From Nitrospira sp. (GTDB lineage: Bacteria; Nitrospirota; Nitrospiria; Nitrospirales; Nitrospiraceae): a stretch of 64,000 bases of DNA. The notes under the pieces are model-generated. The model was given only the letters and a program-made list of their open reading frames with translations, did not search any database and was not told where the DNA came from. Below, piece by piece: positions 16 to 24,055 of the stretch. A program made the position numbers and the translations under genes. Position 1 is the first letter of the stretch. Each line of letters begins with the position of its first letter. Where the stretch lies: positions 3,798,036 through 3,862,035 of the forward strand of contig CP060501.1 of assembly GCA_024760545.1 (NCBI GenBank). Direction: 5' to 3'.

Positions 16-1050
16 TTACAAAACAGTTCTTATCTCGGAGACGGCTACAGTGACGTTAGTGACCGAGTATTCAACGACAGCACCGGGTTTGGCTTTCGCT
101 GGGTAAAAAAGGGCCAAATTCATTCCATCGCTCACCGAGCTGCGATAAATGACTCCATCGTAGCTACACCGCTTAACGAACTCACACAAAAATTGGCTAG
201 GAGTATAGTCAACAGCCGCTGCCTGAGGAAGGACGGGCGTGGTCAATTCTAAGCCTAGCCGCTCAAGAAATGGCAAATCGTTTCTCATTCTTTGGATATC
301 AAGCGCATCGGCTAGCAGAAATGGGGACACCGTCCTCCGTGGTGCACGTAGATCAACGAGCTTAAGGTCAGAAGGAGTTCTAAAATCGGCCACGCAAGCT
401 CTTTCGCCTGTGTGAGGCCTAATTTCAGATACGGCAGTTTTTGGATTCGAACCCAAATATAAGTAGGGGATTCCTGCGGGATTCGCACGTCCGTGCGTGG
501 CAATCCTTCTATCTGGCGCACCCATCTTTTCAATCGGAAATGGAACATCTTCAGTTGATATTCTCGCTCTATACCACACGTCGGGAACTTCTCCCACTGT
601 GACGCTTAGATGAGCAAGAAGGTTTTTCAACCGCTCTTCGTCGAGTTCCACATCGGGGAAAAAACGGTTTCGATACATCAATTCTTCCCGAAGTTTTTCC
701 CACTCGCTCAATCTATCTTTGTCAACCATTTCGGAAGGCAGAAAGGATTTCCTTACAATATCACCGTCATCTAACACCTCACTCAGGAGCTCCTTAGCTT
801 TTGAATCATTCATAGGCGAGTTCGCAAACAAACCCCAATCCTCCCGAAACCAATGGACAAGTAACTTGCCAGTTGCATCCGAGCGGTACGCACTTACCAA
901 TAGCTCAAAATATTCTTGCAACTGCGTTGGGTTTAGGAGCGGCTGGCTCTCTGCTGCGCAGAACGAACATTTGCCTTTCGCTGGCAAGAAAAGGGGGAAG
1001 ATGTTGTGGCGAAGACCGCGATCACCGAAGCATTCCGGACAACACTTCAT
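16..1050 (-). CDS. RES-domain protein with N-terminal zinc ribbon
   Basis: A 344-residue protein. Residues 4-31 carry two Cys-x2-Cys knuckles (C4/C7 and C28/C31), a likely zinc ribbon. The C-terminal half has the RES signature: R161 in a YRAR motif, E209 in AVSEIR and S304/S305 in IYRSS, with a conserved-looking NPKTA segment between. RES proteins are known as NAD+-degrading toxins and as effector domains in larger proteins. The extra N-terminal ~150 residues make this the longer, defence-associated form rather than a compact Xre-RES toxin, and no Xre antitoxin lies beside it. It is the last gene of a tight operon, starting 6 bases after sce7725 stops. The start has no strong ribosome-binding site, which suggests translational coupling. 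Family call is good; NAD-directed activity is inferred. Confidence 0.8.
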   Translation of the reverse strand: MKCCPECFGDRGLRHNIFPLFLPAKGKCSFCAAESQPLLNPTQLQEYFELLVSAYRSDATGKLLVHWFREDWGLFANSPMNDSKAKELLSEVLDDGDIVRKSFLPSEMVDKDRLSEWEKLREELMYRNRFFPDVELDEERLKNLLAHLSVTVGEVPDVWYRARISTEDVPFPIEKMGAPDRRIATHGRANPAGIPYLYLGSNPKTAVSEIRPHTGERACVADFRTPSDLKLVDLRAPRRTVSPFLLADALDIQRMRNDLPFLERLGLELTTPVLPQAAAVDYTPSQFLCEFVKRCSYDGVIYRSSVSDGMNLALFYPAKAKPGAVVEYSVTNVTVAVSEIRTVL

Positions 1051-1056
1051 GGCGAG

Positions 1057-2001
1057 CTAAGTCGCCGGATTGAAGTAGAGGGCAAGCGTCTCGATGTGAT
1101 GATTCATCGAAAGTTTCTTGATATATCCCAAACCAGGAAAATGCCCTCGCCGGTGAAGCTCGCGAAACTCTTGGACTGCCGATGTCTCCTCTATCTTGGA
1201 GTGCTTTTTCTTCAGAATCGAGATCATCTTTTCCAGCGCCTCAGCAAATTTCCCTGCGGGGTCTTGGGGCGTATCCTGTCGATCCGAAACGAAATGATAA
1301 ATCTGCATTGCATCATCTTTCTCTGAGTCTATGAATGTAAGATGGATTGCGACTGCATAGGCTGGTCCCCCAGTTTCGCTGTAATCATCACCAACGATTA
1401 GAAAATCGCCGAATCCATCCATGCCTTCATCCGTGTAGGTAACGTGAAGGTCGGAAAAAAACTCAAGTTCTTCATAATCTCGATTTCGCTTTTTTTGAAA
1501 GCCATCTCTTAAGAGCACTCTGTGTGCTTGTTTGAAATGTTTTTGGTAAAGTTTTCCGCAAAAGCGATCAACAAAGATATGGCATTGGTCTTTCATCGAC
1601 TGGCCTAACTTGGCCGACAAAGTTTTGGCATCGGTAAAGCCCGCATGTATGAAACAAGGTGAGTGGTCAGAGTGATCTTCGAAACATTCAAGCGCTTCGG
1701 CAACTGACATGTTGGGCTTGAGAAGAATTCCCGCTGATATTCCAGGTAAGTTAAGAAATTCCTCCTGTAAGAGTTCTGTCAATGGTTCCCCTGATTCTGA
1801 CAGATCACCATGGTGTGGATTTACAATGACGATTGCACGTCCCTCGACCTCTGCAACAGCTTTTAACGTTCTGTTAAGCCCATTCAAGGTTTCCTTGACT
1901 GGTTCAATTATCGGACAAAACTCCGCCTCCTGAAAAATAGCGGCCATTTCTCTTATCGTTATCAGTTCATACTGTTTTCCGCGAAAGTAAGGATGATACA
2001 T
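1057..2001 (-). CDS. sce7725 family protein (phage Beta-protein-like)
   Basis: A 314-residue protein whose opening (MYHPYFRGKQYEL) and overall layout match the sce7725 family, named from Sorangium cellulosum and nearly always found beside sce7726. The family resembles the phage Beta-protein group. I see no signal peptide, membrane segment or recognisable catalytic motif. It starts 4 bases after the sce7726 stop and ends 6 bases before the RES gene, so the three are almost certainly co-transcribed and coupled. The function is not established; the context suggests a defence or addiction role. Confidence 0.8.
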   Translation of the reverse strand: MYHPYFRGKQYELITIREMAAIFQEAEFCPIIEPVKETLNGLNRTLKAVAEVEGRAIVIVNPHHGDLSESGEPLTELLQEEFLNLPGISAGILLKPNMSVAEALECFEDHSDHSPCFIHAGFTDAKTLSAKLGQSMKDQCHIFVDRFCGKLYQKHFKQAHRVLLRDGFQKKRNRDYEELEFFSDLHVTYTDEGMDGFGDFLIVGDDYSETGGPAYAVAIHLTFIDSEKDDAMQIYHFVSDRQDTPQDPAGKFAEALEKMISILKKKHSKIEETSAVQEFRELHRRGHFPGLGYIKKLSMNHHIETLALYFNPAT

Positions 2002-2005
2002 GCGC

Positions 2006-2902
2006 TTATGCCCAGACCAATGAGTCTTTCAAAGGCGTGTTCACTGCCGAAACGAGTCTTGCATGGTCTAGCTTTCGAAGAGGTACGGAGAGGGCTGCCG
2101 TCTTCAGTGAGTACGGAAGTTGAGCAACCAGACCCGAGAGCGGAAGCAGATTGCGTGTTGTCCTGAGGACTCTCACCATGCCTTCGTGTGCCTCACGCGG
2201 TTTCAACGTAATGAATAATTCTCGAAGCGCTCCGTTTAGTTCAGTATTGGGTACCAACGGAATTTGCACACCTAGAGCATGTAAAATTGAGCGTGCTTCT
2301 TGCGTCCGTATCGACTCGAAGATTACCTCAGGTTCTGTTCGCTCTGGTTGATCTAATGCTTCTCTTAACCGTGAAATCTGATAGCGCTTGCTAAGGCGCA
2401 TCACGCCTACGTACGAAGGTACTGAGCCGAGAACCGAACAAACGTGATCTTCAGCGGCAACAACATACACTTTGGCGAATACTTTGGAATATGCAGCCAC
2501 TTGGCGCTCCAGCCGGCTGAGAGAATCACGTTCGGACTTAATTTCGTAAACTGTCGATGTGCCATTGAGAATCGCAACGTCAGCCTTACATTCACGTATG
2601 CGAAATTCAGTTAGCATCGAAGCATTTTTTAACCCATGTATGCCGAGCAATATATTATGAGTGAGCGCTGTCTTATAAATATATTCATGTCGATAACCTT
2701 CGCGCTTTAGTAGTGCGAACGCTGTATCGAACAGGTCCCTCACACAATCGGATCCAGGCAATGATCGACAGAGTCCAGACTGAGCTGCCAATCTCGCAAA
2801 GATAGGCGATCTGCCTTTTCTCGCCATTTCCCGGACTACTCCTGAGGAAAAGAGCCGAGAAAGTGCAGCTAATTGTTCTGACGCAATGTTGATCATAATC
2901 AT
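2006..2902 (-). CDS. sce7726 family protein, PD-(D/E)XK nuclease-like
   Basis: A 298-residue protein of the sce7726 family, first gene of the sce7726-sce7725-RES operon. The middle contains a restriction-endonuclease-like core: E100, then D108 in KADVAI, and E120/K122 in a YEIKSE motif followed by a helix rich in charged residues. This spacing (D-x11-E-x-K) is the PD-(D/E)XK arrangement. The start is ATG at 2902, with a second in-frame ATG two codons later. The family and its partnership with sce7725 are known; nuclease activity is inferred from the motif. Confidence 0.8.
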   Translation of the reverse strand: MIMINIASEQLAALSRLFSSGVVREMARKGRSPIFARLAAQSGLCRSLPGSDCVRDLFDTAFALLKREGYRHEYIYKTALTHNILLGIHGLKNASMLTEFRIRECKADVAILNGTSTVYEIKSERDSLSRLERQVAAYSKVFAKVYVVAAEDHVCSVLGSVPSYVGVMRLSKRYQISRLREALDQPERTEPEVIFESIRTQEARSILHALGVQIPLVPNTELNGALRELFITLKPREAHEGMVRVLRTTRNLLPLSGLVAQLPYSLKTAALSVPLRKLDHARLVSAVNTPLKDSLVWA

Positions 2903-3218: not shown

Positions 3219-3836
3219 TCATGAAGCGAATCTATGGCGCAAGTGGTATGGCAGGCCAAAGATTTGATACTCCAGCTTTTGAAATTGAATGTCCTTGAAT
3301 TGATTGCGTGATATTAACCCAAGACGTTCTAGGCGCTTGCATACAAACTGGTAGCTAACTTTGGCCTTACAGTGCTTTTTAAACATAACGACCGCATCTG
3401 GAGTCCAAGTGGAAATTTTTGAAGATTGTATATCCTGAGAAAATTCAATCTCTGGATAGAGAAATTCCGCCGCAAATACTTCAGCCCCGATCTCTATCAA
3501 TTCATTTTGATTGTAATCGCCGCAATTAATTTTACCTTTGTTTATATCGTCTTGGTCGCAGTAGTGGTGCTTGAGTTCGTGAATCAAGGCAAAAAGTTTA
3601 GGTTCTTCAGGTAAGTTCTTCTGAATTGCTACGGAATAGTCTGCATCGGAGCACATATATAAGGCTTTAATCTTATAAGGTAAACGGTAATAATCTATGC
3701 GGATGCTTTCCGCAGAATAAATCTTTCGCACTTCCCTCAACCCCAATGTAGCCGTAGGTATGTTGTAAAGTTCTCGTTTATGACGGGCCAAGGCCTTCAT
3801 TTTTTCAAAGTATATATGGCGCTCAGACATTGGCAT
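3219..3836 (-). CDS. ImmA/IrrE-type metallopeptidase
   Basis: A 205-residue soluble protein with the zinc-protease motif HELKH (H86, E87, H90) and a downstream acidic helix (EIGAEVFAAEFLYP) that would give the third zinc ligand. ImmA-type proteases cleave partner XRE repressors and so relieve repression. The gene follows the XRE repressor gene with a 6-base gap, the usual repressor/protease pairing. A second possible start lies two codons in (3830). It probably acts on the protein encoded at 3843-4205, whose promoter also faces the ubiquitin-like operon. Confidence 0.85.
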   Translation of the reverse strand: MPMSERHIYFEKMKALARHKRELYNIPTATLGLREVRKIYSAESIRIDYYRLPYKIKALYMCSDADYSVAIQKNLPEEPKLFALIHELKHHYCDQDDINKGKINCGDYNQNELIEIGAEVFAAEFLYPEIEFSQDIQSSKISTWTPDAVVMFKKHCKAKVSYQFVCKRLERLGLISRNQFKDIQFQKLEYQIFGLPYHLRHRFAS

Positions 3837-3842
3837 TACACT

Positions 3843-4205
3843 CTATTTATTTTTAGGGGATTTTGTAAGCCTTAGGGCGCTACGAACTTTTCGAAATTCA
3901 GCATATCGTAAAACTTCCTCAAAATCTTTCTCATTCAGACCTCCGGTAGCCGATGTTAGAGCGGCAATTCGGGCGTCATCTATTTTCTGATTGGGGAAGA
4001 AAATGGTAATCGGGACTTCAAAAAACCGGGCTAGTTGATCCAAATTCTCGGCGGTTGGCTTATAAGTCCCCGTTTCCCATCTGGATAATGTATTGGGTGG
4101 AATTTTTAGTTGGGCGGCCAAAGCTTCTTGACTTAGAGAACCTTTAGGGTATTGCTGCCTTAGCTCTCTGATTTTCCGACCAATATCCTCGTAGATATCT
4201 CCCAC
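3843..4205 (-). CDS. XRE-family transcriptional repressor
   Basis: A 120-residue protein with an XRE helix-turn-helix over residues ~8-65, including SQEALAAQLKIPPNTLSRWE. The start is GTG at 4205, chosen because AGGAGG lies 7-8 bases upstream and the HTH follows immediately. It is first in a two-gene operon with the ImmA-type protease. Palindromic sites overlapping its own -10 box suggest autoregulation, and the same region carries a divergent promoter for DUF2188 and the ubiquitin-like genes, so it may control both directions. Confidence 0.88.
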   Translation of the reverse strand: MGDIYEDIGRKIRELRQQYPKGSLSQEALAAQLKIPPNTLSRWETGTYKPTAENLDQLARFFEVPITIFFPNQKIDDARIAALTSATGGLNEKDFEEVLRYAEFRKVRSALRLTKSPKNK

Positions 4206-4215
4206 AATAAAATCC

Positions 4216-4255
4216 TCCTAAATTAGGATTATACCATCCTAATGTAGCTTGACAA
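4216..4255 (-). promoter_or_regulatory. XRE/ImmA promoter with palindromic operator
   Basis: Reading leftward, TTGTCA (4250-4255) is followed after 16 bases by a perfect TATAAT (4228-4233). A 6-1-6 palindrome TCCTAA-A-TTAGGA (4216-4228) touches the -10 box, and a second AGGAT/ATCCT dyad (4225-4240) spans it. This is the expected geometry for an autoregulated XRE repressor. Confidence 0.7.
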
Positions 4256-4277
4256 TGAAAAAGTTTAGTATTACTGT
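4249..4277 (+). promoter_or_regulatory. Divergent promoter for the DUF2188/Ubl operon
   Basis: A consensus TTGACA at 4249-4254 is followed after 17 bases by TACTGT (4272-4277), a weak -10 box. The -35 hexamer overlaps that of the leftward XRE promoter base for base (offset by one), so the two polymerases would compete and one repressor could control both. The -10 match is poor, so activity may depend on derepression or another factor. Confidence 0.45.
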
Positions 4278-4339
4278 TACGGGACGATGAGTTCCTAAAA
4301 CAGGAGTGCACTTATTTCGGACAAAAAAGGAGGGATGAA

Positions 4340-4576
4340 ATGTCAAAACGAGGACCCGAAACTCATCATGTAGTGCATAACCCTGAAGGCGGATGGGATG
4401 TGAAGCGAGGTGGAGCCGAACGCGCCAGTAGTCACCACGACACAAAGCGTCAAGCTATCGACGAGGGCCGAGAGGTCAGCCGCAATCAGGGCACAGAGCT
4501 TCGAGTTCATAATCTCAACGGTCGAATCGGCAGCAGTGACAGCCACGGTGGTGATCCAAATCCGCCTCGCGGGTAA
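4340..4576 (+). CDS. DUF2188 domain protein
   Basis: A 78-residue protein matching the small DUF2188 family: THHVVHNPEGGWDVKRGGAERAS followed by a helix (TKRQAIDEGREVSRNQGTEL) and a basic/Gly tail. A good ribosome-binding site (AAAGGAGG) precedes the ATG. DUF2188 proteins are small alpha/beta proteins of unknown role. It is the first gene of a run continuing into the ubiquitin-like gene 38 bases later and is probably in the same transcript. Confidence 0.78.
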   Translation: MSKRGPETHHVVHNPEGGWDVKRGGAERASSHHDTKRQAIDEGREVSRNQGTELRVHNLNGRIGSSDSHGGDPNPPRG

Positions 4577-4614
4577 AAGACTTGTTCAAAATCTTTTGAG
4601 AAAGGTAATCGCAA

Positions 4615-4893
4615 ATGCTCCAGGAAAAAGTAAGCCATCAAGCAGACGCACCCGGCCACCAAAAGTCCTTTACGATCATCGTCAACGGACGCCGCCGAAC
4701 TATCACAGATCATAAGCTCACCTACATCGAGGCTGTGCATCTGGCATACCCCTGCGAGCAGCCATCCGAAACGGTTTCATTCACGGTCACCTATTCTAAT
4801 CCGCACGGCAAGGACGGCTCTCTTGTTGAGGGTCAGGAAATCAAGGTTCAGGATGGGATGGTGTTAAATGTCCGTAAAACTGATCGCTCGTAG
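4615..4893 (+). CDS. Ubiquitin-like protein (multiubiquitin-type beta-grasp domain)
   Basis: A 92-residue protein with one beta-grasp domain of the prokaryotic multiubiquitin type: a first strand pair KSFTIIVNGRRRTI, then a helix and TVSFTVTYSN, ending MVLNVRKTDRS. There is no terminal Gly-Gly, so if conjugated it would use another C-terminal end, be processed, or act as a non-conjugated partner. The following E1 gene starts inside it (26-base overlap), which indicates coupled translation and a matched pair. The family call rests on the fold pattern and the diagnostic neighbours. Confidence 0.8.
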   Translation: MLQEKVSHQADAPGHQKSFTIIVNGRRRTITDHKLTYIEAVHLAYPCEQPSETVSFTVTYSNPHGKDGSLVEGQEIKVQDGMVLNVRKTDRS

Positions 4894-6049
4894 CCCCGAC
4901 CTGAAGCGGCTGCAAGATGAGGGGTACGAGATTGAGGTTCGGAGCGGGTTTCTGATCGTCCGCTCCGTTCCTTACGTCACGTCAGGGAGGATGGTGGCCT
5001 TTGGCACCGTCGTCACCGACCTCGCGCTAAACGATGATATTACACAGAAGCCGCGAGATCATCAGGTGTGGTTTGCAGGTGAACAGCCATGCCACGCCAC
5101 TGGCGCACCGATTACGGCGCTTGGGCCACAGCAGTGCAGACAGACTCTGTGCGATGGCGTGGTGGTGGACTTTCGCTTCTCGGCAAAGGCCGACTATCCC
5201 GATTACTACGCCAAGATTACGCAGTACGACGAAATCCTTTCCAATCCGGCGAGATCGCTGAAGCCCGCCGTGACGGCGCGGACTTTTCGTCCCATTGAAG
5301 CGTGCGAGGAAGATTCAATTTTTCTGTATGCTGATTCTGCAACCAGTCGCGCAGGCATCGTACCTGCGTCCATCAAACTCGCTATGAAGAGGATTGCCGT
5401 AGTCGGACTCGGCGGGACCGGCGCATATGTGCTGGACCTTGTCGCCAAGACGCCCGTGCATGAAATCCATCTATTCGACGGCGACCGATTCCTTCAGCAC
5501 AATGCCTTCCGATCACCAGGCGCAGCGTCGCTGGATGACCTGCGACAGAACCTTTCGAAGGTTGAGTATTACACGGCGCTATACAGTCGTCTGCGTCGCG
5601 GGGTGATTCCACACCAAGAATTCATCAGCGATGAGACCATTGGCCATCTTGCCAACTTCGATTTTGTTTTCGTATGCATAGATCGTCCTACCGCTCGCAG
5701 GATGATTTCGGAGTTTCTGAAATTAAACAATATGCCGTTTATTGATGTCGGTATGGAGCTTGAGCTGATCGAAGATCAGGCAAGCCTTGTTGGAGCATGC
5801 CGGATTACACTCAGCACTCCCGGAAAGCGTGATCACTTCGCGCGCCACGTGTCGCTCGAAGGCGCAGTTGCTGAGGAGCTATATGGCACGAACATTCAGG
5901 TTGCCGATCTGAATGCACTGAACGGCGCGTTCGCCGTCTTAAAATGGAAGAAGTTCTGCGGCTTTTATCAGGATTGTTACCAGGAACACCAGTCGGTTTA
6001 CGCGATTAATGCGCATCAGCTTACACGCGACGAAACGGTCACGATGTGA
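4868..6049 (+). CDS. ThiF-family E1-like adenylyltransferase with N-terminal DUF6791/E2-like region
   Basis: A 393-residue protein. The C-terminal part is a ThiF/E1 domain: nucleotide-binding GLGGTG at 180-185, then D204, N212 and R215 in the DGDRF...HNAFR motif and K231, giving the ATP-binding set. FIDVG at 291-295 fits the E1 core. The N-terminal ~165 residues match the DUF6791 type found only in front of such E1 domains; a Cys/His cluster there (C75-H76, C90, C95) could include a thioester site, making this an E2-E1 fusion, but I cannot show that. Candidate E1 cysteines include C270 and C311. It overlaps both neighbours, and its stop shares bases with the DUF6527 GTG start. Confidence 0.85.
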   Translation: MSVKLIARSPDLKRLQDEGYEIEVRSGFLIVRSVPYVTSGRMVAFGTVVTDLALNDDITQKPRDHQVWFAGEQPCHATGAPITALGPQQCRQTLCDGVVVDFRFSAKADYPDYYAKITQYDEILSNPARSLKPAVTARTFRPIEACEEDSIFLYADSATSRAGIVPASIKLAMKRIAVVGLGGTGAYVLDLVAKTPVHEIHLFDGDRFLQHNAFRSPGAASLDDLRQNLSKVEYYTALYSRLRRGVIPHQEFISDETIGHLANFDFVFVCIDRPTARRMISEFLKLNNMPFIDVGMELELIEDQASLVGACRITLSTPGKRDHFARHVSLEGAVAEELYGTNIQVADLNALNGAFAVLKWKKFCGFYQDCYQEHQSVYAINAHQLTRDETVTM

Positions 6050-6507
6050 GACAGACTTTTCTCCGGTTGCAATTGGTAAAGTATATACCTGAGCATTTGG
6101 AAGACGGTGTTATCTATGTGTCGCAGCGATACCGAACCGCCACACATCGCTGCTGTTGTGGCTGTGGTGAGGAAGTTGTTACACCTTTTGGCCCGACCGA
6201 TTGGTCATTGCAGATCGCCCATGGGGCCATAACGCTTTATCCCTCTATTGGAAATTGGAGCTTTAGGTGCCGGTCGCATTACTGGATTCGCAATAGCAAG
6301 GTGGTGTGGGCCGGGTCGATGACCAAAAGGCAGATCGAATATGGTCGTGCGCTGGACCAGCGGATGCGAGATGCATACTTCGCTAGGGCAAATAGTCAGA
6401 TAGGTGGACTATTGGCAGCGCCTCCGTCACAACACAAAGGACTGGTACAGCAATCCAACTGGACCGACACATTGTCGAGAGCCTTCAAGAAATTGTTGGG
6501 CCTCTGA
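6046..6507 (+). CDS. DUF6527 zinc-binding protein
   Basis: A 153-residue protein starting at GTG (6046), four bases overlapping the E1 stop (GTGA). A Cys-rich cluster (C36, C37, C38, C40) and a later C75-x2-H78 suggest a zinc site, and the sequence between them follows the DUF6527 pattern (WSLQIAHGAITLYPSIGNW). DUF6527 genes are repeatedly found next to the DUF6791-ThiF genes. In this operon it could be a ligase-like, deconjugating or target-recognition component; no protease motif is obvious. The function is inferred from context only. Confidence 0.78.
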   Translation: MRQTFLRLQLVKYIPEHLEDGVIYVSQRYRTATHRCCCGCGEEVVTPFGPTDWSLQIAHGAITLYPSIGNWSFRCRSHYWIRNSKVVWAGSMTKRQIEYGRALDQRMRDAYFARANSQIGGLLAAPPSQHKGLVQQSNWTDTLSRAFKKLLGL

Positions 6508-6612: not shown

Positions 6613-6640
6613 GGGCCATGATTCATTCGGATCATGGCCC
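6613..6640 (+). terminator. Candidate terminator hairpin after the Ubl operon
   Basis: A perfect 10-base stem GGGCCATGAT / ATCATGGCCC (6613-6622 and 6631-6640) with an 8-base loop lies between the DUF6527 stop and the convergent gene ending at 6662. On the plus strand it is followed by only CCTTTC, a weak U-tract, so it may be a partial or bidirectional terminator. Confidence 0.45.
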
Positions 6641-23090: not shown

Positions 23091-23581
23091 TCGCATCACG
23101 GCCGCCTCTGGTCGTCGGGCCAGGGGCAGCACCCTTGCTGCCTGAAGGGAAAGATGAGACGCGCATTGGCATATGACGGTGCAGTAAGCCGCTCAGAGCT
23201 TCTAGCGTTCAGGAATCAATCCCTCCAATAGTCCCCATCACTTTCTTCATTCTCGGTTCCACATCAACGTACCCTCTCGTTCTAATCTTCTTCGCTTTGC
23301 CAGTTGCGGCATTTCTTTCAAGTCTCATCGCTCTGAAGCAGGCGCGTTTAGCTATTGTCATCGGTCGATCGGACTTGTTCGGCCATGTCAGGCCGGTGGC
23401 CTGCCGAGCACTGATCGCCTGACGCAGCGCCCGCACCAGCACAGATCTGTCACGGCCGCCGCTAAGTCCTCATCCGCTCGTGCTTATTCGGCAGTCCTCG
23501 CCCCGTCACCTCCGTTGTCCTGCACTGGCGCTTCGGCCTCTGCGAAAGCGCCAGTTCGTTCAACATACAGGAGGTGCCACC
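23091..23581. other. Intergenic region upstream of the RadC-like gene
   Basis: About 491 bases with no convincing gene. A 77-codon minus-strand frame (23209-23442) is rich in Arg/Lys but lacks a ribosome-binding site. A strong hairpin at 23524-23555 sits in the leader of the RadC-like gene. Confidence 0.45.
23524..23555 (+). promoter_or_regulatory. Leader hairpin ahead of the RadC-like gene
   Basis: A 10-base perfect stem ACTGGCGCTT / AAGCGCCAGT with a 12-base loop ends about 13 bases before the AGGAGG site at 23570. There is no U-tract, so it is more likely a leader structure than a terminator. Confidence 0.45.
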
Positions 23582-24055
23582 ATGGCCAAACAATCCGTCA
23601 ACCGACTTCCCGTTCCACAGTTCATTCCGCGCTACCGCGTCACGCTGGTTTCTGAGGGAGGTCACACCGCTCCCTGCGGTCTTCTTCGCGATTCCGCTGC
23701 CGCGGTCGCAGCGTTGCGCCCATGCTTTGCTGGTCTCGATCGCGAGCAGTTCCTCGTCTGTTGTCTTGATGCCAAGAACGCCAGCATTGGCGTGAACGTC
23801 GTCTCGATCGGCACACTCACCCTGAGCATTGTGCATCCACGTGAGGTGTTCAAGCCCGCGATCCTGCTCAACGCTTGTGCGATCATTGCCGTGCACAACC
23901 ATCCGTCAGGAGATCCCACACCCAGCCCGGAGGATCGGAAGCTCACCACACGACTGCGGGAAGCTGGAGACCTACTGGGCATCAGGCTGCTCGACCATCT
24001 CATTCTCGGTGACGACAGTCTCTATAGTTTTGCAGATCAAGGCTGGCCACTGTGA
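23582..24055 (+). CDS. RadC-like JAB/MPN-domain protein
   Basis: A 157-residue protein of the RadC family found on mobile elements. The JAB motif is complete: an upstream Glu-containing strand, then HNHPSGDPTPSPED with both His and the Asp. I start at ATG 23582 with AGGAGG upstream; a longer frame has no support. Chromosomal RadC is longer with an N-terminal HhH region, absent here. Mobile-element RadC proteins are accessory genes of unclear role. A JAB fold can also act as a ubiquitin-like isopeptidase, notable given the Ubl operon 17 kb away, but nothing links them directly. Confidence 0.85.
   Translation: MAKQSVNRLPVPQFIPRYRVTLVSEGGHTAPCGLLRDSAAAVAALRPCFAGLDREQFLVCCLDAKNASIGVNVVSIGTLTLSIVHPREVFKPAILLNACAIIAVHNHPSGDPTPSPEDRKLTTRLREAGDLLGIRLLDHLILGDDSLYSFADQGWPL

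Follow-up and report, generated by a model that had tools for sequence, protein, structure and literature searches.

A ubiquitin-like operon with a serine-ended modifier and a divergent XRE-ImmA regulator pair in Nitrospira

Introduction

Ubiquitin-type systems that rely on an E1 enzyme usually activate a C-terminal glycine of the modifier and then relay it through cysteines. An operon of Nitrospira sp. (contig CP060501.1) raises the question of how such a system may operate with a modifier that ends otherwise, and of what switches it on. The operon lies in a 64,000-nucleotide stretch of DNA (the window), in which an initial annotation, made from the sequence, had recognized a ubiquitin-like conjugation operon facing an XRE-ImmA pair. 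The best explanation of the whole, to which we assign a probability of roughly 0.6, is a mobile, stress-inducible and probably thioester-free cassette that tags targets with a ubiquitin-like protein (Ubl).

Operons of this kind are not new. They were described as type 6e by Iyer, Burroughs and Aravind in 2006 (PMC1779556), and the available text of that work reports a "domain X" instead of JAB in some members. Two further systems serve here for comparison. Bil (BilABCD) has an E2 with a catalytic cysteine, a JAB protease and a two-lobed E1, according to the available part of PMC11354881, and Bub operons, known from Citrobacter and Enterobacter, adjoin either CapW or CapH+CapP in 219 of 544 instances and have not been demonstrated to protect against phage, according to the available part of PMC13373217.

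Methods

The survey comprised 48 non-redundant DUF6791 loci, the window counted in, after L020, L064, L070, L079 and L080 had been dropped as carrying E1s more than 90% identical. Regulators and Ubls were counted over these 48 loci, with the Bub locus L077 left out, and E1 conservation was computed over 47 of 49 non-redundant sequences, leaving out L077 and L024, which is without an E1 domain. The DUF6527 alignment has 50 rows, with L077 entered twice and the transposon-split L063 left out. In the ImmA density counts, same-strand upstream matches, mostly UvrD fusions, were left out of both classes.

Results and discussion

Pfam families bear out the ubiquitin-like operon of the initial annotation together with its genes and coordinates. 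On the plus strand, the operon starts with a small DUF2188 protein (4340-4576; PF09954, 1.6e-21; PADLOC PDC-S16, 2e-32) and continues with a Multi_ubiq Ubl (4615-4893; PF14452, 5e-12), an E1 (4868-6049; PF20590, 2e-51; ThiF PF00899, 1e-12; NF004805, 1.8e-154) in which an N-terminal DUF6791 domain (residues 10-157) precedes an adenylation domain that begins at about residue 165, and a DUF6527 protein (6046-6507; PF20137, 9e-24). These genes nearly touch or overlap, as had been noted: a gap of 38 nt separates DUF2188 from the Ubl, whose end overlaps the start of the E1 by 26 nt (4868-4893), and the E1 overlaps DUF6527 by 4 nt. On the minus strand lie an XRE-family helix-turn-helix repressor with a GTG start (3843-4205; PF01381, 3e-14) and an ImmA/IrrE-type (M78) metallopeptidase (3219-3836; PF06114, 4e-12) with HELKH at residue 86. 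A plus-strand terminator-like hairpin of 12 pairs follows the operon (6613-6640) and has the longest stem of the six such sites that a sequence scan found in the region, against a shuffle mean of 2.9. The initial annotation saw no separate JAB or E2 gene, and neither profile has a convincing match among the window ORFs (best E 0.003, at 23.4 kb, for JAB and 0.43 for Prok-E2_E); the claim needs amending to the extent that DUF6527 is itself a plausible protease.

Across the surveyed loci both the gene set and the gene order are conserved. A Ubl adjoins the DUF6791-E1 in 48/48 non-redundant loci, DUF6527 is present in 45/48 and a start codon stands at the register of the 26-nt Ubl/E1 overlap in 47/48, while the exact six-gene arrangement of the window was found again in three distinct relatives. 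No tblastn match was obtained in 50,697 phage records, and no viral contig carrying the operon was found among close relatives.

The window operon fits the "domain X" branch of type 6e as laid out in the available text of PMC1779556, and we infer that domain X is DUF6791 and protein Y is DUF6527. DUF6791 operons and type 6e alike have one to three Ubl domains beside an E1, an E1 with a non-JAB N-terminal domain and a small Cys/His protein, and both are patchy and mobile in distribution. The Cys/His pattern differs slightly in order and spacing, being C-x3-C-x(35-38)-H-x2-C in the 6e metal-binding protein and C36-x3-C40-x34-C75-x2-H78 in DUF6527. An inactive E2/RWD-like domain is also given for 6e; the window ORFs are without a Prok-E2_E match, and the likeness of DUF6791 to an E2 is weak. 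A serine end, an XRE-ImmA pair and a small first gene are not mentioned for 6e in the same available text. Bil shares with the window a bacterial Ubl and an E1, but its E2 and JAB families are not among the window operon proteins. Bub operons are alike in their related E1 adenylation domain, in DUF6527, although it is absent from the stretch examined of the Bub-like locus L090, and in the same kinds of regulators. They differ in that JAB is fused to the E1 (Prok-JAB and ThiF in L077, against DUF6791 and ThiF in the window) and in having a Prok-E2_E protein or fusion, of which the window operon has none.

The initial annotation had expected an unusual chemistry, in part on account of a Ubl without terminal Gly-Gly, and on both counts it is supported. 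The window Ubl ends in -KTDRS, its last residue being Ser92 (codon 4888-4890), and a C-terminal serine is encoded in 48/48 non-redundant loci. In the overlapping E1 frame the residue over the serine codon varies (R in 17, H in 14, L in 13 and P in 3). The window Ubl is related to the solved multi-ubiquitin protein 9cd2 (1.9e-10) in an alignment that runs to the last residue. The related Bub Ubls carry glycine at or near the C terminus; the Citrobacter BubA construct ends in glycine, from which we infer a glycine end for the active Bub Ubl, against serine in the DUF6791 loci. We know of no conjugating E1 that takes a C-terminal serine as substrate, and a literature search on a serine C terminus returned no paper. 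Judged from the encoded termini, the serine-ended Ubl appears to be a new point relative to known systems.

Of the E1 adenylation residues, G180, G182, G185, D204, D206, R215 and K231 are present in 47/47 E1s, G183 and D272 in 46/47 and N212 in 43/47. At the level of aligned sequences these residues are intact and no cysteine is invariant, which bears on the classical alternative of thioester conjugation, in which C75 would be an E2-like cysteine acting with another cysteine of the E1 and the lineages lacking these cysteines would be degenerate. Of the 47 E1s, 38 keep C75, which the DUF6791 model places in the loop following its four strands, at roughly the position of an E2 active site. However, C75 is replaced by H, Y, S or R in the other 9/47 while the Ubl serine and most adenylation residues stay fixed, and the next best cysteine, C270, is found in only 28/47, so that we regard thioester chemistry as unlikely.

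The initial annotation had looked to an E2-like fold with a conserved cysteine for support, and this part is not supported: even the best-conserved cysteine of DUF6791, C75, is in 38/47 E1s, and the match of DUF6791 to an E2 profile is weak. In hhalign against seven Prok-E2_E domains the match had P 0.0077 and a probability of 5% over 25 columns; five unrelated controls gave P of at least 0.11 and the reversed E2 P 0.14, but in global mode the E2 (P 0.35) fared worse than a Ubl control (0.062). The AlphaFold model of DUF6791 is confident at residues 21-130, with block means of 74-93 to residue 140, mostly 81-93, and shows helices, four strands, a hairpin and a helix. When the whole E1 model was searched with Foldseek and VIA, the matches listed all came from the E1 domain. 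The name DUF6791 was absent from the literature searched, including the matches listed for Bub searches, a scope outside which the key Bub papers lie.

A thioester-free route could pass through a hydroxyl, for which the best candidate is Y339 (codon 5882-5884, plus strand), kept in 46/47 E1s and close to the position of Y370 of Bub E1, which is invariant in 7/7 Bub E1s. MAFFT and hhalign both pair Y339 with Bub Y362, and pairing with Y370 takes a shifted gap. PDB entry 9eav is titled BubCD(D104A/Y370F)-BubB-BubA. The 2026 Bub paper of Ye reportedly describes oxyester intermediates. Y339 could also have a role in adenylation instead of acting as a nucleophile.

The window E1 is related to the Bub E1 adenylation domain in sequence (9ea4 and others, 1.1e-6; profile-profile probability 99.4%), and its model matches BubCD along the E1 portion. 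A further alternative takes after MccB, an E1-like enzyme whose substrate is a peptide with a terminal asparagine. Here the E1 would adenylate the non-glycine end of the Ubl and yield a Ubl modified with a nucleotide or small molecule, with no protein conjugate. The non-glycine terminus speaks for it, as do structural matches to MccB, with a Foldseek E of 1.4e-7 at best and a VIA Z of at most 13.9. Both programs nevertheless rank the Bub E1s higher (E 8e-10, Z up to 15.0), Foldseek also prefers UBA5 entries and VIA also prefers ThiF, and the Ubl co-occurs with a DUF6527 shared with Bub conjugation operons; we hold an MccB-like outcome to be quite unlikely. Least probable of all is a non-covalent arrangement in which multi-Ubl proteins form filaments or scaffolds, with the E1-like protein as an ATP-driven regulator. 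Some members do have three Ubl domains per protein, and a 2025 paper by Gong, going by its title, reportedly finds that bacterial Ubls oligomerize, but the window Ubl has a single domain and the invariant last residue points to C-terminal chemistry.

For a tagging cassette, removal of the tag would probably fall to DUF6527. S67 and H78 occur in all 50 aligned rows, L077 being counted twice, and NCBI annotates an E. coli relative as a serine protease; together these make DUF6527 a plausible candidate for a deconjugating serine hydrolase. Cys 40 and Cys 75, candidate zinc ligands, are missing in two Bub members, which weakens a zinc-finger reading. The DUF6527 model had no significant match among solved folds, reaching at best E 0.29 in Foldseek and Z 3.0 in VIA, and the name DUF6527 was absent from the literature searched. 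The serine-ended Ubl, the E1 lacking an invariant cysteine, the nearly invariant Y339 and the conserved S67 and H78 appear, from these alignments, to be new here.

The linkage to XRE-ImmA proposed by the initial annotation recurs in the homologues, with a divergent pair in 21/48 non-redundant loci and a divergent ImmA alone in four more. Divergent ImmA matches just upstream of the Ubl number 25 in 94,531 bp, whereas the remaining 515,174 bp of these loci hold 3 matches to the ImmA profile; the entire window genome has three PF06114 matches. A regulator linked in this way suggests that DUF6791 operons are induced by stress or infection. The regulator itself is an exchangeable module, because a recognised pair is absent from 27/48 loci and the closest relative operon (E1 84% identical) has its own XRE-ImmA pair without a blastp match to that of the window at 1e-6. 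A divergent HTH repressor and an ImmA-type (M78) protease with HExxH, facing an immune-type operon, resemble CapH+CapP and CapW. In CapH+CapP, single-stranded DNA activates cleavage of the repressor, and induction follows. The window proteins differ in that their PADLOC matches to capH (1e-6) and capP (6e-9) are weak and other families score equally or better (HTH_VI, 1e-10, and RmrA, 7e-10, for XRE; PDC-M69B, 3e-10, and RmrA, 6e-9, for ImmA). The pair might instead be an ICE-like regulator of a surrounding integrated element, next to the operon by chance; window genes that resemble conjugation genes, judged by eye from their translations, point that way, as does the precedent of a cI-like repressor module controlling ICE TnSmu1 in the available text of PMC10233336. 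Such an accident is very unlikely given the divergent position repeated in 21 loci and the rarity of ImmA elsewhere in them.

Between the two transcription units, both -35 boxes of the initial annotation are there, TTGACA (4249-4254) for the rightward and the overlapping TTGTCA (4250-4255) for the leftward promoter. The minus-strand XRE promoter, TTGTCA-16-TATAAT (4228-4255), is strong, with 11/12 matches in the promoter scan. The rightward candidate (4249-4277, plus strand) has a perfect -35 but a weak -10, TACTGT (4272-4277, spacing 17, 3/6 consensus matches), and is absent from the scan output, which leaves the plus-strand promoter half supported; promoter-like sites over the whole region number 2 against a shuffle mean of 3.2, with no excess. 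Palindromes do cover the XRE -10, as had been proposed, and the candidate XRE operator is ATTAGGAT-N6-ATCCTAAT (4222-4243), with more half-sites at 4217 and 4294. Arms of at least 7 were reached by 214/2000 shuffles, so that this palindrome alone is not beyond chance; a count of four CCTAA/TTAGG half-sites is rarer, at 2/2000 shuffles, for a motif picked post hoc. The best palindromes were not the same across the 14 other loci that have a divergent XRE, and in four of them (L074, L048, L078 and L054) the arms were reached by at most 12/300 shuffles.

In the proposed tagging cassette, XRE would repress its own promoter and the operon, and ImmA, once stress, for instance DNA damage, is signalled (cf. 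CapH+CapP), would remove XRE and turn the operon on. The E1 would then adenylate the Ubl at the carboxylate of its C-terminal serine, and transfer would take a non-cysteine route, either straight from Ubl-AMP or via a hydroxyl such as that of Y339. DUF6791 would replace the separate E2 and JAB of Bub operons and position the acceptor, and DUF6527 would take the tag off. A branch that is widespread in bacteria, invariably ends its Ubl in serine and has no invariant cysteine would test which parts of the usual E1 chemistry are essential, and with its two or three small proteins it lends itself to reconstitution.

Many single-Ubl operons also encode a tiny protein, in the window DUF2188, which may be a target or cofactor. 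Such tiny proteins of DUF6791 operons comprise DUF2188, DUF1508, DUF3892 and YjzC-like proteins. We tentatively raise the possibility, doubtful as it is, that these loci form a separate ubiquitin-like branch with a serine-ended modifier and one cysteine-independent DUF6791-E1, working by tyrosine or direct transfer without separate E2 or JAB, for which the tiny protein, as a swappable component, would be the dedicated target. In the whole window genome, the single PF09954 match is the DUF2188 gene of the operon.

Operon organization and genomic context

Two divergent gene groups occupy positions 3219-6507 of the window. Gene calls and profile searches place XRE (3843-4205) and ImmA (3219-3836) leftward, and DUF2188 (4340-4576), the ubiquitin-like protein Ubl (4615-4893) and DUF6527 (6046-6507) rightward; between the last two lies the 393-residue DUF6791-E1 gene (4868-6049, rightward), whose product matches NCBIfam NF004805 above the model cut-off (1.8e-154). 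A hairpin scan locates a terminator-like hairpin of 12 pairs at 6613-6640, 3′ of the operon. DUF6791, Multi_ubiq and DUF2188 each have one match in this genome, all in this operon. Because DUF6791 was not found in the same-species genome G320, and translations judged by eye reveal conjugation-like ORFs to the right of the operon, we take the region to be accessory, mobile DNA. Adjoining the ImmA gene, window 16-2902 (-) encodes a RES-domain protein (PF08808) and a sce7725/sce7726 family pair (NF033831, NF033832), perhaps further defence or toxin-antitoxin genes. A weak JAB-profile match (E 0.003) lies distant from the operon at 23423-24052 (+); we guess its product to be RadC-like.

This Ubl cassette is real and conserved, and it fits the non-JAB branch of the type 6e class (Iyer 2006, PMC1779556). 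It is related to the bacterial ubiquitination-like (Bub) operons, yet fails to show three of their features. In the literature searched, whose coverage excludes key Bub papers, we found no description of this cassette's terminal Ser, E1 free of an invariant Cys, or E2/JAB replacement; the three are new as far as the accessible literature shows, and part may be in print.

Distribution and synteny

Among 395 genomes from the window's phylum (window counted), 10 carry DUF6791; counting the centre genome each time, so do 5/369 genomes of the class of a Polaromonas relative, 3/296 of the phylum of a Streptomyces relative and 6/296 of the phylum of a Christiangramia relative. A tblastn search of 72,556 plasmid records found 157 that match E1; in 108 the match spans 80% or more of the protein, and the weak matches confined to the E1 domain include the Bub operon L077. 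Phage records gave no E1 match. A search in near mode with the Klebsiella version as query found close relatives in 3 of 5,426 E. coli genomes.

Reducing 54 assembled loci at 90% E1 identity left 49, comprising L077 as outgroup and 48 non-redundant DUF6791 loci. The initial annotation had named conserved linkage of DUF2188, Ubl, DUF6791-ThiF and DUF6527 with XRE-ImmA as a check, and conserved linkage is seen: Ubl directly precedes E1 in 48/48 loci, DUF6527 is found in 45/48, and divergent XRE and ImmA genes, separate or fused, in 21/48. The loci without DUF6527 are L007 (contig edge), L024 (rearranged) and L022 (none found). The layout ImmA-XRE / DUF2188-Ubl-E1-DUF6527 is identical on five alphaproteobacterial plasmids (Tritonibacter, Pontibrevibacter, Pacificitalea and two Sulfitobacter), which amount to two independent cases after three were dropped as >90% identical; L025 is the third distinct case of this six-gene layout. 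In the DUF6791 operon of a Methylomonas plasmid (L063:5197-7050), DUF6527 lies in two pieces around an IS256 transposase. At L024:7848-9200, a DUF6791 N-terminus is joined to an M48-type metallopeptidase look-alike (by eye) in place of the E1 domain, either an assembly chimera or a true fusion.

Regulatory genes

Within 2 kb upstream of Ubl in the 48 DUF6791 loci, we also recorded divergent ImmA without a recognised XRE (4 loci), WYL proteins (2), CapK/CapS relatives (3) and UvrD helicases (5). XRE and ImmA accompany 12 of 28 genome-derived loci (window counted) and 9 of 20 hand-picked plasmids; divergent ImmA genes number 25 in the 94,531 bp just upstream of Ubl, against 3 profile matches in 515,174 bp elsewhere in the same loci. 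The UvrD helicase of L047 (2792-6187), upstream of a multi-Ubl operon, bears an N-terminal M78 (ImmA-type) domain and a PD-(D/E)XK domain, and local profiles match both families in L049, L061 and L068.

L025, the closest operon, keeps the window's gene order and an 84% identical E1, but blastp at 1e-6 found no match to the window XRE or ImmA there; operon and switch therefore seem to have been exchanged separately, the regulator behaving as a module. According to PMC13373217, Bub operons adjoin CapW or CapH+CapP in 219/544 cases, and the regulators of L077 match its CapK and CapS by accession. ImmA and HTH genes are likewise divergent from a Pseudanabaena Bub-type operon.

Ubl, E1 and DUF6527

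The last Ubl residue is Ser in all 53 loci (48/48 non-redundant), always encoded by TCN; AGY codons are absent because they are distant from TCN. Bub Ubls differ: the last residue of a Citrobacter construct is Gly, and three Ubls that stand alone terminate in -GQN, -FG and -GRA. A start codon for E1 lies 26 nt upstream of the Ubl stop in 47/48 loci (L027 and L074 have an additional Met one codon before the common start), a register in which the Ser codon supplies parts of E1 residues 7 and 8. Residue 8 (R 17, H 14, L 13, P 3) simply varies with the wobble base of that codon; judged by this variation, E1 would need no particular residue there, and the constraint more likely stems from the Ubl frame, with a contribution from the E1 frame still conceivable.

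Among 47 aligned E1s, the adenylation residues are invariant or almost invariant. An E2-like fold with a conserved Cys in the E1 N-terminal region, which the initial annotation would have counted as support, is not supported: the best DUF6791 Cys, C75, occurs in only 38/47, the next best Cys of the E1, C270, in 28/47, and no Cys is invariant. Seven Bub-type E1s share an invariant Tyr, Y370, and an invariant Cys, C284. The latter pairs by sequence (FCCVD vs FVCID) with the window's unconserved C270; Y370F is carried by an experimental structure that also contains E2 and Ubl (9eav title). Y339, found in 46/47 E1s, starts YGTNIQ, against YITGLQ at Bub Y370; MAFFT and hhalign align it with Bub Y362, 8 residues before Y370, and in our reading of an ambiguous gap it would pair with Y370.

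The AlphaFold model of E1 is confident over residues 21-130 and poor beyond 295, and its top Foldseek matches are BubCD structures (E 8e-10). The modelled DUF6791 order (helices, four strands, a loop bearing C75, hairpin, helix) suggests that this domain could be an E2/RWD variant; profile-profile comparison with E2 gave a weak match, not upheld in global mode.

DUF6527 retains C36, P66, S67 and H78 in 50/50 aligned rows, with four Bub members among them and L077 entered twice; other Cys vary. S67 and H78 are likely a catalytic pair, a reading for which fold searches gave no support. NCBI labels the E. coli ES2 relative 'ubiquitination-like system serine protease family protein'.

The small gene at the operon start

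At the head of single-Ubl operons there is often a gene for a tiny protein: DUF2188, DUF1508 (presumably the family of the YegP relatives), DUF3892, a YjzC-like protein or one of two further types recurring by eye. On a list drawn by hand and post hoc, such genes occur in 13/30 single-Ubl and 0/18 longer-Ubl operons (Fisher p 7e-4); XRE and ImmA are also commoner with single-Ubl operons (18/30 vs 3/18, p 0.006). PMC13373217 locates YegP relatives after capK/capS in 57 cases. In L019, L024 and L027 a basic protein of 57-60 residues (GAVRDRSQ...GRF), whose L019 copy has no Pfam match, takes the place of DUF2188 upstream of Ubl. DUF2188 itself matches the PADLOC candidate PDC-S16.
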